From Flavobacteriia bacterium (GTDB lineage Bacteria > Bacteroidota > Bacteroidia > Flavobacteriales > Schleiferiaceae), in NCBI GenBank assembly GCA_013373425.1, contig JABXHW010000028.1, forward strand, positions 1-62,542: 62,542 nt of DNA, written 5' to 3'. The first letter of the stretch is position 1. Every line of letters starts with the position of its first letter. The notes under the pieces were generated by a model that saw only the letters and a list, made by a program, of their open reading frames with translations, made no database searches and had not been told where the DNA came from. This document shows positions 14,754 through 60,966 of the stretch, one piece after another. The translations under genes and the position numbers were made by a program.

Positions 14754-15059
14754 TTATTCTATGCTGATGGAATCATCTTCACCCTCACTGATTTGGACGA
14801 AGTTGCCAAAAGCGCCAACGAACATAGCATCCCCCAACTCGAAAGTAGAGAAGATTACATAGTTGCGACGCTCGCTTTGTTCACCAATATAGTCCAGCAA
14901 ATTGCCGGTCAATGCGAGTACAACTTCCTCAAAATCACTGTCTGCTTGCTTGTCGACATGGTTCCTCATGAAGTCACCAAAATCCTCTTTTGTGGGATTT
15001 GTGAGTACCGCTATGACTACGATAAACCCGAGTACGAGTAAGGTGGTTAGCTTTTTCAT
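14754..15059 (-). CDS. Small membrane-anchored protein, DUF4359-like
   Basis: A 101-residue protein: one N-terminal hydrophobic segment (KKLTTLLVLGFIVVIAVL), then TNPTKEDFGDF, a helical stretch and a hydrophobic end with RRNYVIFSTFEL and VGAFGNFVQI. The TNPxxxDF opening after a single membrane span and the NYxxFS...G..G.F ending resemble the DUF4359 family, which has no known function. It may be a signal anchor with a periplasmic domain. It stands alone on the minus strand, with the period-8 tract 15078-15237 directly upstream, so any promoter lies in or beyond that tract. Confidence 0.7.
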   Translation of the reverse strand: MKKLTTLLVLGFIVVIAVLTNPTKEDFGDFMRNHVDKQADSDFEEVVLALTGNLLDYIGEQSERRNYVIFSTFELGDAMFVGAFGNFVQISEGEDDSISIE

Positions 15060-15077
15060 GAAGGGAAGATAAGAAGA

Positions 15078-15237
15078 TAGGCTAAGAGATGGTTAGACTG
15101 ATAGACTATGAGACTGTCAGATTTATAGACAATCAGACTTTTGGACATCCAGACATCTAGCTGTCCATCTTTCTGACTCCCCGGTCCTCCGGCCATCTAC
15201 CCTTCCTTCCGCACGTACATCCGTCCCCACGTCCCTA
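15078..15237. repeat. Degenerate 8-bp-period intergenic tract
   Basis: Twenty consecutive 8-mers can be laid out without a gap: TAGACTGA, TAGACTAT, GAGACTGT, ... CAGACTTT, TGGACATC, CAGACATC ... CGTACATC, CGTCCCCA, CGTCCCTA. The plus strand changes from AGAC-rich units to C/T-rich units about halfway. The tract starts 2 bases past the stop codon of the minus-strand gene 15240-16268. There are no long identical repeats and no spacers, so this is not a CRISPR array. Confidence 0.8.
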
Positions 15238-15239
15238 CT

Positions 15240-16268
15240 TCAGTGCCAATTATCACAATGAATCCAAACTCTATTATCCTCCTGCTTCATCACGGCGATA
15301 TACGGACAGCCAAAGGATTCCCAAACTAGATTGGTGACTACTGGAGGCTGACCTTTGAAGAGAAGACCGCACCATTGGTAAGGGCCGTTCGGGTCGCCGT
15401 CGTTTTTCACGGAAATAGGGGCAGGCGACTGGCTTTCACCATCGTAGAGATAGGTGGTCGAAATGACGCCAACTGAATCTTCATGGATGGCCCAAACCTC
15501 ATAGTCGGCGCCGTAGTGGTTTTCTGGTTTGAAATCAGTTCCATTCCGGAAGATGTGCCATTTGCCATTTTGATGGTGATAGATAGGAAGTAAGTTCGTG
15601 TCGTTTGCCCACGTTAAATCAATCTGCTGATCCTTGGTGAGTTCAGTGAGATCTTCTTTTGAGATTTCTTCCCACACCATCGGTTTGATTTCTCCCTCTA
15701 CAAAGGGTTGTTCCGGACCGATATGCACAAACGACTCAAAGAATAACAGCGAATCCATGGGATAGATATCCGGAATCTCGAAGCCAACTTGGAAAGCCCA
15801 ATGCGAGTATGGCGGATGCGTGTCGTAGGGGTTCGCCTGAGCAATTACCTTTAAATCCGTCACCGCATACCTGCGAATGACCCCTCTATCCACGTTGAAA
15901 ATCGTCAGTGTATCTTCTTCTGTGAATCGCGTACTGTCCAGTACAATCTTGCTGTGAGCTGCACTCAAGTGATGATAATTTCTATTTCCGAAATCCTCAG
16001 TAAAGTACTTCTCCTCGATAATCAGATTTGTATCGTGTCGTGGCCAACGATCAGTGATGAAAACATTGACGTTGGCACTGCTGTCTCTGCGATAGACGGT
16101 GAGATAAAACAGGTTCAAATCTTCGAGCTCCACCTTTTCCTCAACAGGAATTTCAACTTCTAATCTATTGCCCGGCACCGATGTAGGCGGCAACTGTGCA
16201 TGCGCCGTCTGGTCTTTCGAATGGTTGCATGCGGTGATGAGGAGGAGTAGAGGTAGGAGATATTTCAT
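15240..16268 (-). CDS. Lipoprotein of unknown function
   Basis: The start is placed at 16268 because translation from there gives MKYLLPLLLLITACNHS, a clear lipoprotein signal peptide with the lipobox LITAC; a longer frame to 16442 runs into the next gene and through a repeat tract and is not credible. The mature protein (342 residues in all) has segments such as LFYLTVYRRDS, PPYSHWAFQVGFEIPD and GPYQWCGLLFKGQPP that suggest a mainly beta protein exposed at the membrane. I do not recognise the family. The gene is bounded on both sides by degenerate 8-bp-period tracts, with no partner gene to hint at a role. Confidence 0.75.
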   Translation of the reverse strand: MKYLLPLLLLITACNHSKDQTAHAQLPPTSVPGNRLEVEIPVEEKVELEDLNLFYLTVYRRDSSANVNVFITDRWPRHDTNLIIEEKYFTEDFGNRNYHHLSAAHSKIVLDSTRFTEEDTLTIFNVDRGVIRRYAVTDLKVIAQANPYDTHPPYSHWAFQVGFEIPDIYPMDSLLFFESFVHIGPEQPFVEGEIKPMVWEEISKEDLTELTKDQQIDLTWANDTNLLPIYHHQNGKWHIFRNGTDFKPENHYGADYEVWAIHEDSVGVISTTYLYDGESQSPAPISVKNDGDPNGPYQWCGLLFKGQPPVVTNLVWESFGCPYIAVMKQEDNRVWIHCDNWH

Positions 16269-16271
16269 TGT

Positions 16272-16398
16272 TGGAGTATTGGAGGTCTGGATGACTGAAC
16301 TTCTGGATAAAAAGATTCTTTGACTAGCTGACATTTCAAGAATTAAACCAATAATTTTTGACTTCATAGCAATTCCAATATTTTGACCTCCAGACCTC
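16272..16398. repeat. Second degenerate 8-bp-period intergenic tract with inverted ends
   Basis: On the plus strand 8-mers follow one another from 16272: TGGAGTAT, TGGAGGTC, TGGATGAC, TGAACTTC, TGGATAAA, then weaker units. GAGGTCTGG near 16282 and CCAGACCTC near 16390 are perfect 9-base inverted copies at the two ends, so the whole tract could form a stem with a large loop. It begins directly at the stop codon of the minus-strand gene 16399-17256. Confidence 0.7.
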
Positions 16399-17256
16399 TT
16401 AAAACCTCCTCGCATAACCCACATACGGCAATGGAATCCCATCCGTCAGATCATCCAAAAACACAATACCAATGTCGAAGGCATTCTTTTCAGATAGGAT
16501 TCGAATGCCCTGAATGCCGAAGTAGAAAGATTCAGCGGGATCGACGATAATGTAGTTTTCGGAAAGGAGTGCTATGGAGTTTGTGATTCGATGCGTGCCG
16601 GATACCAATATCGCGGGCTCTTCGGTATAGAATTCATCGAAGTCTGTCCATACTCCGGCTCCAGCGGTAATGCTAGATTCTCCGTGGGTATATGTGGCTA
16701 CGGCGTAAGGAAGCGCGCCACTGAAGAAGTCGAACGCACCAACAACAAGAGCTCCGGTGCTAATGCTCCAATGCTCGCTTATGTCCGTTCCTATTTTGGG
16801 AGTGAGGAAGCCTATGGGTTCCCCGTTGACCAGACTGAGAAATTCGAATCCACCTCCTATGCTGATGTGATCGGTGATGCCTACATTCACGAAGTTTCCA
16901 ACGATGAGCAGGTTCTGGTAATAGCCTTCGCCTTGCTCCAGTTGAGTGGCGGATGGCCCGAAGAAGTAGCGGGTCATGTGCGGGTTGGCAAAGCGATAAT
17001 CGCCCAAATATTCATCCATTTCAATAGCTTTAATCCGCGATTTTAAAACATGTACTTCACCGTAGTTGGTAACGAGGACAATGCTGCTGTCGAGGATTCG
17101 GTCGAGCACTCCGCGGATTTCGTATCCTTCATCCGTTTCGACTTCGATTTTAACTCCAATGTAGTTCACAAGGGAGTCGTTTTGAGCGTGTAGTTGCTGC
17201 GACCAGCCAATGGCGGCCAATAGGAGCATCAGCGAAAATAGACGATGCAATTTCAT
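16399..17256 (-). CDS. Exported protein, probably outer membrane, unknown function
   Basis: A 285-residue protein with a signal peptide ending near QQLHAQ. The first third contains a short beta segment (VEVETDEGYEIRGVL-like, about residues 37-75) reminiscent of small SH3-like or DUF-type domains that handle a membrane lipid or nucleotide in other families, but no motif is decisive. The remainder alternates glycine-rich and hydrophobic strands (GNFVNVGITDHISIGGGFEF, ISTGALVVGAFDFF, ITAGAGVW) and ends in YVGYARRF, with a terminal aromatic residue as is common for outer-membrane beta-barrels. I do not recognise a named family. Transcribed on the minus strand upstream of the lipoprotein gene and separated from it by the second period-8 tract. 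Confidence 0.72.
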   Translation of the reverse strand: MKLHRLFSLMLLLAAIGWSQQLHAQNDSLVNYIGVKIEVETDEGYEIRGVLDRILDSSIVLVTNYGEVHVLKSRIKAIEMDEYLGDYRFANPHMTRYFFGPSATQLEQGEGYYQNLLIVGNFVNVGITDHISIGGGFEFLSLVNGEPIGFLTPKIGTDISEHWSISTGALVVGAFDFFSGALPYAVATYTHGESSITAGAGVWTDFDEFYTEEPAILVSGTHRITNSIALLSENYIIVDPAESFYFGIQGIRILSEKNAFDIGIVFLDDLTDGIPLPYVGYARRF

Positions 17257-21505: not shown

Positions 21506-22756
21506 ATGATGAAATTTCTCCTATTTTCTACTTTGCTGGTGCTGAGCCTCTCGCTTCAGGCTAGCGACACGCTTCAGTTTTTTCAAGGTACCTACGACGA
21601 GGCCATGGCTGAATCTGAGGCCACAAGCAAACCACTCTTGCTCTATTTTCATTTTGATGGTTGCGGTGCTTGTGTGAAGATGGAGAAGGAAGTCTTTACA
21701 GACCCTTCCGTTAAGGCCTACTACAATTCAGCTTATGTGATAAAGGACATCAACACGCTAATCGGTGAAGGTCGTGATGTAAAAGAGAAATACGGTGTTA
21801 CGCTTCAACCCACCTTTAAATTCTTGAATTCCCAAGGAGAGGTGGTGCACCAATTGGTAGGGGTGTTCTCACCAGAAGATTTTGTTCGTGCGGGAAAGGT
21901 AGCCGCAGAGGAAGACCAAGCCTTGATGGCGTTGGCGACTGAATACGAAGCAGGGAATCGAGAGAGCGAATTTCTTTTCAATTATTGCCGTGCGCTCCGC
22001 GACGCTTATACCTTGGACTCAGCGGTGATAGAAGACTACATTGCCTCGTTGTCCGCGGCCGAATTGAATTCGGAGAAGTCATCCGTTTTCATTTTTGAAT
22101 ACTCTTTCATTGAGCATACTCCTGTATTTGGCTTTGATAGTCCGGCGTTACAAGCCCTCATCCGGAATCAGGAATTGGTTTACGATTCTTACGATTCAAC
22201 ACAGGTAGCCAACCGGATCATGTTATCTCTCATCTTTGATGTGAAACGTGCTATCAGTCGAAATGATAGAGCGCACATCAATGGAATCCTCGACTATTTC
22301 AAAACCAATCCACCTCAATCTTCCTTCCTAATGTTTGAGGAATTGGACGGTCGAGCTACCCTATACATGACGGTTGAAAACCTGGTAGCCACCACTGAGT
22401 TAGAGGCGGCCATCGCTTTCAATAATGAAGCTGAAATCGAATCGATAATAGCCGATCGCCTAGGCGACCCTGCCAACGCAGAAACAGATATCCTCAACGA
22501 ATTCGCCTACTACGTCTACCGCTATAGCGAAGATGAAGCCCTCCTCAACCGCGCCATCGCCTGGAGCGAGTTGGCCGTCCAAAAATCTCCTGGCTACATA
22601 GAACTCACCACCTACGCTCAACTCCTCCACAAACTCGACCGCAACCGAGAGGCTTTGGAGGTGATTAACGAGGCCATTGCTAAGGGAAAGGATGAGGGGT
22701 ATGGTGTTAGCAGAGAAGAGTATTTGAAGGAGCAGATAATGGAGGGGATTGATTAG
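21506..22756 (+). CDS. Exported thioredoxin-fold protein with TPR-like C-terminal half
   Basis: A 416-residue protein with a signal peptide (MMKFLLFSTLLVLSLSLQAS). Residues about 24-130 are a thioredoxin fold of the DUF255/thioredoxin_7 kind with HFDGCGACVKME, giving an active-site pair Cys53-Gly-Ala-Cys56, followed by GVTLQPTFKFL with the cis-proline (QP). The C-terminal half is helical with TPR-like spacing (SELAVQKSPGYIELTTYAQLLHKLDRNREAL-type pattern). It is probably a periplasmic thiol oxidoreductase with a protein-binding domain. The start could equally be the second Met. A degenerate period-7 tract begins immediately after the stop. Confidence 0.85.
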   Translation: MMKFLLFSTLLVLSLSLQASDTLQFFQGTYDEAMAESEATSKPLLLYFHFDGCGACVKMEKEVFTDPSVKAYYNSAYVIKDINTLIGEGRDVKEKYGVTLQPTFKFLNSQGEVVHQLVGVFSPEDFVRAGKVAAEEDQALMALATEYEAGNRESEFLFNYCRALRDAYTLDSAVIEDYIASLSAAELNSEKSSVFIFEYSFIEHTPVFGFDSPALQALIRNQELVYDSYDSTQVANRIMLSLIFDVKRAISRNDRAHINGILDYFKTNPPQSSFLMFEELDGRATLYMTVENLVATTELEAAIAFNNEAEIESIIADRLGDPANAETDILNEFAYYVYRYSEDEALLNRAIAWSELAVQKSPGYIELTTYAQLLHKLDRNREALEVINEAIAKGKDEGYGVSREEYLKEQIMEGID

Positions 22757-22840
22757 TACTGGGTACTGGGTACGGATACTAGGTGACAAGCTCACTAGGT
22801 TACATTTCACCACATACTGATACTGGATACCAGATACTGG
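22757..22840. repeat. Degenerate 7-bp-period intergenic tract
   Basis: Directly after the stop codon come TACTGGG, TACTGGG, TACGGAT, ACTAGGT, then weaker units and again CATACTG, ATACTGG, ATACCAG, ATACTGG, all on a 7-base grid. CTAGGTGA and TCACTAG near 22780-22797 are inverted. The tract lies between convergent genes and could act in the 3' end of transcripts; no U-rich terminator is seen. Confidence 0.7.
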
Positions 22841-22916
22841 GGGCTACCTGCGCCTTAGCTCTCCTGGGTACCTATCTTCTGTTCTCTAACTGGTGATGTT
22901 CTCATCCTCATAAGCT

Positions 22917-60708: not shown

Positions 60709-60732
60709 AACTCCGCCCGCTAATTTGCAATG

Positions 60733-60767
60733 GCCCTCTAGTGAAAGCTAGGGGGCTTCTTTTTTTG
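60733..60767 (+). terminator. Intrinsic terminator after paralogue 2
   Basis: GCCCTCTAG (60733-60741), loop TGAAAG, CTAGGGGGC (60748-60756), then TTCTTTTTTT. A 9-base stem with one G-T pair. The degenerate period-7 tract starts where the T-run ends. Confidence 0.88.
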
Positions 60768-60919
60768 AGTGGCGGGTGACGAGTGGCGAGTGACGGGTAG
60801 CGAGAAACGAGACGCGAACTGACCTGCGTTCCTACCTAATTCACTACCTATACCCAAGCTCACCAGCTTACTAGGTCACCAACTCACTTCCCTACATCGT
60901 TCACTCACTAGCTATTTCA
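60767..60919. repeat. Degenerate 7-bp-period intergenic tract with strand switch
   Basis: From 60767: GAGTGGC, GGGTGAC, GAGTGGC, GAGTGAC, GGGTAGC, GAGAAAC, GAGACGC, then units that look like the reverse complement of the first ones (GCTCACC, TAGGTCA, CCAACTC, ACTTCCC). All sit on a 7-base grid. The tract lies between a terminator and the next gene and contains no protein-coding frame. Confidence 0.78.
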
Positions 60920-60966
60920 GTTGATTATGATTGGCCTTACTTTCCTTTACTTCTAAACAGGCAGTT

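Follow-up and report, generated by a model that had tools for sequence, protein, structure and literature searches.

What are the two tracts of 8-base periodicity that fill neighbouring spacers between minus-strand genes in a Flavobacteriia bacterium, and how did they come to lie there? Both are found in the window, i.e. the 62,542 nucleotides of contig JABXHW010000028.1 that were analysed as a whole. An earlier note on this DNA had placed the tracts on an 8-base grid and offered three explanations for them: 3' transcript structures, footprints of a small replicating element, or binding arrays with a spacing below one turn of the helix. The grid itself is well supported. Compared with 2000 dinucleotide shuffles, lag-8 identity reaches 81 matches against 38.6 expected in 15078-15237 (z 7.9) and 54 against 31.5 in 16272-16398 (z 4.6), so that in both tracts the signal lies above the shuffled level, which the note had set as the mark to be exceeded. 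Lags 16 and 24 are raised as well with respect to such shuffles, while lag 7 is not. Within the whole 62.5 kb there are two 80-bp windows with at least 40 lag-8 matches, at 15086 (47 matches) and 16267 (41). These correspond to tracts 1 and 2, which are thus the two strongest lag-8 windows of the stretch. As period-8 segments they score 43.0 (tract 1, 15058-15246) and 13.7 (tract 2, 16261-16362), and their extents of ~15060-15239 and ~16270-16398 are slightly larger than first described (Table 1). Both start at a stop codon, as had been noticed: tract 1 directly after the TGA of the minus-strand gene 16268-15240 and tract 2 directly after the TAA of the minus-strand gene 17256-16399. At the far edge on the minus strand, tract 1 reaches the ATG of the next gene and tract 2 stops one or a few bases short of an ATG. 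Rfam at gathering scores identifies one tRNA across the window and nothing else.

Table 1. Periodic tracts of the window and the genes bordering tracts 1 and 2.
Feature	Position	Strand	Remarks
Small gene	14754..15059	-	Start codon abuts tract 1; sub-threshold match to DUF4359 only
Tract 1, gene-less array	15060..15239	.	~22 units of 8 bases; fills spacer between two minus-strand genes
Gene upstream (in transcription) of tract 1	15240..16268	-	No Pfam family; distant homologues in two congeners
Tract 2, gene-less period-8 array (TGGAGTAT, TGGAGGTC ...)	16270..16398	.	Fills the next spacer
Gene with stop codon abutting tract 2	16399..17256	-	No Pfam family
Period-7 tract, core GTACTGG	22756..22855	.	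Begins at stop codon TAG; right half judged by eye
Period-7 tract, core GAGTGAC, then inverted CACTC units	60767..60930	.	Between terminator-like hairpin and next gene

At its low-coordinate end tract 1 has purine-rich units (TAGACTGA), which give way to pyrimidine-rich ones (CGTCCCCA) towards its high-coordinate end. Over 15060-15239 the purine fractions of the outer thirds differ by 0.47, a value attained by none of 1000 shuffles, and the proposed passage from G/A-rich to C/T-rich units is thus strong in this tract; in tract 2 (16270-16398) it is suggestive, with a difference of 0.26 that 79 of 1000 shuffles equal. Inverted ends had also been suggested. The fold of tract 2 does contain a 10-bp end-to-end pairing, while the complementarity of the two halves is not significant in either tract, being matched by 305 of 1000 shuffles for tract 1 and 76 of 1000 for tract 2. 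The idea that units drift one by one has to be given up: in tract 1 the match fraction stays at ~0.5 from lag 8 to lag 48 and falls only beyond, which indicates that the units share one profile. In the left part of this tract (9 units) columns 2-5 of the pattern YAGACNNN are nearly fixed, i.e. four or five of the eight columns (YAGAC) are kept and the rest are free.

Location after stop codons and the end-to-end pairing of tract 2 are what one would expect of 3'-end RNA structures, either terminators or REP-like stabilisers. However, the two tracts fold no better than shuffled sequences (z -1.03 and -1.41; 26 and 18 of 200 shuffles as good), a separate terminator-like hairpin with a T-run (60730-60766, by eye) stands directly before the tract at 60767, and two tracts of the species comparison described below occupy spacers between divergent genes. 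We therefore consider RNA structures an extremely unlikely explanation. T-runs also precede the tracts at loci L041 and L054 (by eye).

The two tracts are not isolated cases. With tract 1 as query, three more matches are found in its own genome, on two contigs, and the spaced pattern AGACNNNNAGACNNNNAGAC (one mismatch) gives 72 hits compared to 24 for the reversed control. In 462 kb of this genome, made up of the window and twenty 20-kb stretches, periods 7 and 8 are prominent with 6 and 15 segments at a score of at least 12, and shuffles yield zero segments at any period. Apart from 7 and 8, segments occur at multiples of three and at periods 4, 14, 16, 20 and 28; periods 5, 10, 11, 13, 17 and 19 have none in these 462 kb. 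In the congener G001 (232 kb) mainly period 7 is seen (5 segments, core GTGACGG) next to two segments at period 8 and single ones at periods 10, 11, 17, 19 and 23. P. luteus (G002, 70 kb) has four segments at period 7, five at period 8 (cores such as GTTGGAGG) and one at 17, and the family member G005 (80 kb) has one period-7 segment, equal to its shuffle. Tracts 1 and 2 are thus part of a larger population of period-7/8 arrays spread over the genome in Phaeocystidibacter, a genus to which P. luteus belongs as the nearest named record (88% identity over 116 residues of release factor 2). P. luteus also contains super-repeats of ~400 and 180 bases that hold period-8 AGAGGGTT/AGAC patterns (L228, G002:C21:126500-129000, and L227, G002:C11:8800-11443).

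To what extent such arrays persist at a given place can be seen from the spacers of sister species. A syntenic region with 127 reciprocal best hits to P. luteus and 78 to G001 provides 117 and 64 comparable spacers, respectively, and the median spacer between aligned genes is 27-48 bp. Among the 117 spacers, three have a tract at a score of at least 11 in the window's genome and two in P. luteus; both species have one in a single spacer only, that between a threonine-aldolase-like gene and prfB (gene names assigned by eye), and the two sequences are unlike. Among the 64 spacers compared with G001, two have a tract in the window's genome and none in G001. Tracts are thus gained and lost between species. 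The most instructive spacer measures 656 bp between aligned gene ends in the window's genome (G000:C21:29230-29885) and 6 bp in P. luteus: it holds a gene of the S23 / 23S-rRNA-IVP four-helix-bundle family (PF05635, TIGR02436; 4HB in the following) between mutually inverted period-7 arrays. For tracts 1 and 2 themselves, homologues of the gene upstream of tract 1 in two congeners (28-30% identity) have no other gene in common with it in the compared stretches, so that a local empty site is not available; a scan of genome contigs with the neighbouring gene gave 8 stretches, none of them confirmed.

Two further features of these spacers were noted. In P. luteus one spacer (G002:C22:62231-63231) is 1001 bp long compared to 179 bp in the window's genome, and holds several near-identical ~150-base units with REP-like palindromes (by eye). 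Three Phaeocystidibacter species have the conserved sequence TTACTTTTGC directly before the start of prfB (spacer G000:C21:130219-130453 and the corresponding spacers of G002 and G001). It resembles the Bacteroidota -7 promoter box and lies at the extreme end of this divergent spacer, which an array fills in one species.

The combination of arrays and a 4HB gene turned out to be common. Of 30 4HB loci from 14 Flavobacteriales genomes, 24 are flanked by period 7-9 arrays on both sides and 29 have at least one such array. Among control genes of like size, 3 of 168 and 2 of 152 have arrays on both sides and ~11% have one or more. For 4HB genes the flanks were taken to start at the limits of the family match and for controls at those of the open frame; the two positives among the 152 Phaeocystidibacter controls may themselves be elements. 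Left-right inverted similarity exceeds the 99th percentile of the controls at 19 of the 30 loci and stays below it at 11. This set goes back to 49 listed matches, of which 30 loci were returned; L208 and L209, below the family cut-off, were dropped and L215 and L216 of the window's own genome added. A second set, taken among the matches listed with one locus per genome (30 loci, one already counted), provides 29 further Bacteroidota loci, of which 22 have arrays on both sides and 27 on at least one. In the Bacteroidota sample a PF05635 gene is present in 45 of 61 genomes. Nine plasmid loci, fetched out of 15 records and coming from Nostoc, Geminocystis, Calothrix, Pseudanabaena, Gemmatirosa and Riemerella, i.e. 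from Cyanobacteria, Gemmatimonadota and Riemerella, show arrays on both sides in eight cases and on at least one side in all nine, a count that has no separate control set. Some arrays of the Bacteroidota and plasmid loci are near perfect. Of 20 paralogue loci in two genomes (two of which, L310 and L329, repeat the already counted L244 and L250), 14 have arrays on both sides and 17 on at least one, mostly with a core of their own (by eye), and three (L317, L320 and L329) have none on either side at score 9. As a control for mobile genes we used Y1 transposases: none of 20 loci has arrays on both sides, and two have an array on one side. The score cut-offs (7, 9, 11 and 14) were chosen after viewing the data and applied identically to the controls, and gene calls are longest open frames obtained without a trained gene finder. 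Period-7 to -9 arrays thus enclose the 4HB gene family in three phyla.

Filled and empty versions of the same site define the limits of the unit. Nostocales plasmids of ~85-95% identity provide five such sites, including two within a single operon. Nostoc edaphicum, for example, has nrdB-4HB-nrdA where Calothrix NIES-4105 has nrdB-nrdA, and a filled site of Calothrix brevissima is empty in N. carneum, Tolypothrix and Aulosira. By eye, the empty versions of the five sites are free of arrays, a stop codon is found at each site or no more than ~ten bases away, no constant target-site duplication is seen across the five, and target sequence is missing at two of the filled sites. This is further supported by two copies in genome G051, which share 80% identity across 455 bp: their similarity extends from one outer array edge to the other, the flanks are unrelated, and in both copies the stop codon of the upstream open frame falls in the first array unit. 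Together, the Nostocales sites and the G051 copies identify the arrays as the outer ends of an insertable unit of ~0.5 kb that is found filled and empty at one site. Plasmid pNsp_c of Nostoc ATCC 53789 contains in addition the left junction of two gene-bearing copies followed by a pair of arrays with similar core that lacks the 4HB gene; this pair is a gene-less version beside its gene-bearing siblings. Its right junction retains target sequence that is absent from the gene-bearing copies, which points to a history of more than simple deletion.

One might also regard the arrays as pre-existing landing sites for 4HB genes, not as parts of an element, given that gene-less arrays outnumber gene-bearing ones in Phaeocystidibacter (85 arrays compared to 10 PF05635 matches in three genomes). 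This is already largely contradicted by the array-free empty sites and by the two copies of one element that bring their arms to different places, and leaves landing sites with very little probability.

The position of the insertable units agrees with what the earlier note had observed at stop codons. Among 118 arm edges, 62 face a stop codon, 29 a start codon and 27 have no gene in range; the excess of stops over starts is significant (binomial p 0.0007), and 52 of the 62 fall between -39 and +9 of the stop (for these edge counts and the tree labels used below, four of 68 loci without clear period were left out). Since spacers are short, placement at stop codons may reflect where an insertion is tolerated rather than a target. 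Polarity is shared as well. Of 57 two-arm elements, 37 have a purine-rich 5' arm, 5 a pyrimidine-rich one and 15 a neutral one; the corresponding numbers for 24 gene-less arrays of at least 100 bp are 9, 0 and 15. Tract 1 has the polarity of most two-arm elements, and tract 2 tends the same way, at the level of significance given above.

These positions also bear on a regulatory role, which MacGregor (2015) proposed for arrays just upstream of start codons (PMC4679880, as far as the sections at hand go). Tracts 1 and 2 would suit such a role in that they lie between co-directional genes and extend to the next start codon. On the other hand, the core is not the same in different congeners or at different loci of one genome, tracts appear in and vanish from orthologous spacers, and the sides of 4HB elements that face stops outnumber those that face starts about as two to one, as counted above. 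A regulatory function therefore appears very unlikely as the origin of the arrays.

How do the gene-less arrays relate to the insertable units? In Phaeocystidibacter all 12 arms of six 4HB elements match best a gene-less array of their own genome, some of them by one point, in a pool of 85 gene-less arrays (35, 29 and 21 per genome) that includes stretches fetched for the AGAC pattern. For both arms of element L216 of the window's genome the best gene-less match is the window tract at 60767, and the core of the tract at 22756..22855 resembles, by eye, the arrays around the 4HB gene at locus L194 of the same genome. Stretches from ten 4HB-rich genomes (400 kb) contain 23 period-7/8 arrays at a score of at least 14, counted irrespective of unlisted 4HB genes (shuffle 1), compared to zero in 348 kb of nine 4HB-free genomes, one of them represented by 28 kb only (shuffle 0); the contrast is not clean, as the free genomes have a higher mean G+C and contig starts make up 16 of 20 rich and 12 of 18 free stretches. 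Seven of the rich genomes have at least one of the 23 arrays and three have none, and nine arrays are on one contig. Judged by their sequences, gene-less arrays thus resemble the gene-bearing arrays of the same genome.

As an alternative, the arrays might be simple sequence repeats with 7-8-base units that polymerase slippage extended in neutral spacers and that mutated afterwards, with a period set by the DNA that the polymerase holds. Heptamer over-representation in bacteria and the idea of polymerase size have been published (PMC4692102, in the parts used here), the portions of PMC4679880 available to us report that Cyanothece strains differ mainly by 7-nt steps, and near-perfect arrays occur among our loci. 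Slippage may well be how arms lengthen. However, it does not predict mostly inverted arrays around one gene family, identical outer limits in two copies, array-free empty sites, or the lack of arrays in the 4HB-free sequence, and the columns within a unit are unevenly conserved. As the source of the arrays we regard slippage as unlikely.

We conclude that tracts 1 and 2 are probably gene-less members, non-autonomous or decayed, of a family of short insertable elements. PF05635 has no match on the window's contig, so that the tracts could only be gene-less derivatives, and the assignment is based on the shared period, on the place, on polarity, which is clear for tract 1 alone, and on how the other tracts of their genome behave. 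Of the three ideas of the earlier note, the footprint of a small replicating element is thus favoured, by the filled and empty sites, the enclosed 4HB genes, the G051 copies and the kin arrays. The connection of the two tracts with any one 4HB element is weak. In the window's genome, which is 96% complete, four 4HB genes were found, none of whose arrays has the AGAC core. The family of tracts 1 and 2 (AGAC/GGA core, period 8) has its nearest gene-bearing relative in P. luteus, in a copy interrupted by a single in-frame stop; aligned with P. luteus 4HB arms, tract 1 scores 15 compared to 11 for the shuffled 95th percentile and 14 for other elements, a weak similarity.

A complete element consists, within ~0.5 kb, of an array of 7-, 8- or 9-base units, an S23/4HB gene and a similar array, usually inverted. 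Among relatives of known structure, the entries 2gsc (Xcc0516) and 2rld each comprise five chains; for Xcc0516, the parts of PMC4990558 at hand and a reference title in PMC3936711 describe a pentameric ring of four-helix bundles. Each subunit of such a pentamer may bind one short unit on single-stranded DNA or RNA, and one unit per ring subunit would explain why the period is held at 7-9 although most bases can vary. Binding arrays spaced below one helical turn, the remaining idea of the earlier note, are compatible with relatives that form rings of five. The 4HB protein might aid the copying or pasting of the unit together with host enzymes; copies lacking the gene would survive where they are harmless, just after stop codons, and then drift. 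An arm of five units, as would fit a pentamer, was considered and rejected: the apparent median over 149 arms is 7.4 units (the detector adds about one), with a broad spread. The period agrees weakly with the 4HB tree, the period-7 label requiring 9 changes compared to 12.8 when shuffled (1/500) and all labels giving 31/200.

For the enzyme that moves the element two candidates were examined. Avd of diversity-generating retroelements is a four-helix-bundle ring that binds nucleic acid and works with a reverse transcriptase. The 4HB element differs in this respect: reverse transcriptase (PF00078) is absent in 23 of 45 4HB-bearing genomes, including those with 16, 15 and 13 4HB copies and one of two with 14, and the window's genome has one match. 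REP sequences with their RAYT Y1 transposases and MITEs likewise comprise gene-less intergenic copies with inverted ends that rely on a gene elsewhere. In contrast to REP/RAYT systems, arrays do not enclose the Y1 genes tested here and no transposase was found; moreover, a Y1 transposase is absent in 10 of 45 4HB-bearing genomes, which speaks against it as a general mover. In the 61-genome Bacteroidota sample Y1 genes occur in 35 of the 45 4HB-bearing genomes compared to 6 of the 16 4HB-free ones (p 0.005), a co-occurrence that may be due to common ancestry or general mobile-element load. As neither enzyme is consistently present, host repair or replication enzymes are our default guess for the mover.

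Several known repeats can be compared with these elements. The cyanobacterial STRR are likewise intergenic tandem repeats of heptamers and have to our knowledge no association with a gene. A close counterpart is the 23S rRNA intervening sequence (IVS) of Coxiella. According to the sections of PMC4990558 used here, it contains an S23p gene, complementary ends and, before the gene, three tandem heptamers plus a degenerate one, and its authors mention mobility as one old hypothesis. Together with the IVS of Leptospira and Brucella cited in the same portion, it shares with our elements the protein family, a unit of 0.4-0.5 kb and complementary ends. It differs in that IVS lie inside rRNA and are cut out by RNase III, while the present units lie between protein genes and have longer arrays on both sides; tracts 1 and 2, too, lie between protein genes and not in 23S rRNA. 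The TAACTGA repeats of Beggiatoaceae, Cyanobacteria and some Bacteroidetes (PMC4679880) are likewise intergenic with period 7, patchy among strains and missing from the same spacer of relatives. However, they consist of one exact heptamer, are mostly near start codons, are read as regulatory and, in the parts of that paper at hand, are not linked to 4HB genes; exact direct TAACTGA repeats are absent from tracts 1 and 2, whose units have period 8 and an AGAC/GGA core. The Xanthomonas GGGAATC and Nostoc GGGGATT heptamers (Rehm et al. 2015, PMC4692102) similarly form intergenic arrays near one gene end and differ in being interpreted, in the passages seen, as G-quadruplex formers; Xanthomonas campestris also encodes the S23 protein Xcc0516. 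TAACTGA arrays and the Xanthomonas and Nostoc heptamers may be gene-less or partial members of the family. Among the open-licence papers searched we found none that links such arrays with four-helix-bundle genes.

As a tentative proposal, which we think could be right but would not expect to hold in full, all of these may form one class of transposase-less elements: an S23/4HB pentamer would read inverted arrays unit by unit and paste them at stop codons with host enzymes, and the rRNA IVS, TAACTGA repeats, STRR and Xanthomonas heptamers would be members or relics. If this is true, heptamer and octamer repeats hitherto read separately as regulatory sites, quadruplex formers or slippage products would share a single origin, and 4HB proteins, a common annotation without known function, would gain a testable job. 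The element is small, widespread and poorly recognised. It points to mobility without a recognised recombinase or reverse transcriptase and accounts for part of the spacer turnover between sister species.

Three further loci deserve mention. At L207 (G002:C22:127958-131185) a weak 4HB match has long inverted flanks (alignment score 47) and no clear period-7/8 arrays. At L209 (G011:C13:87255-90470) long period-9 arrays (GTCCCAACC) flank a frame with a sub-threshold match to the family. In plasmid pPg_01 of Pseudanabaena galeata (L269) a 4HB element is located between cas6 and cas4, and insertions of this kind may be the reason why the 4HB family is listed among cas-locus genes in the part of PMC3936711 consulted.
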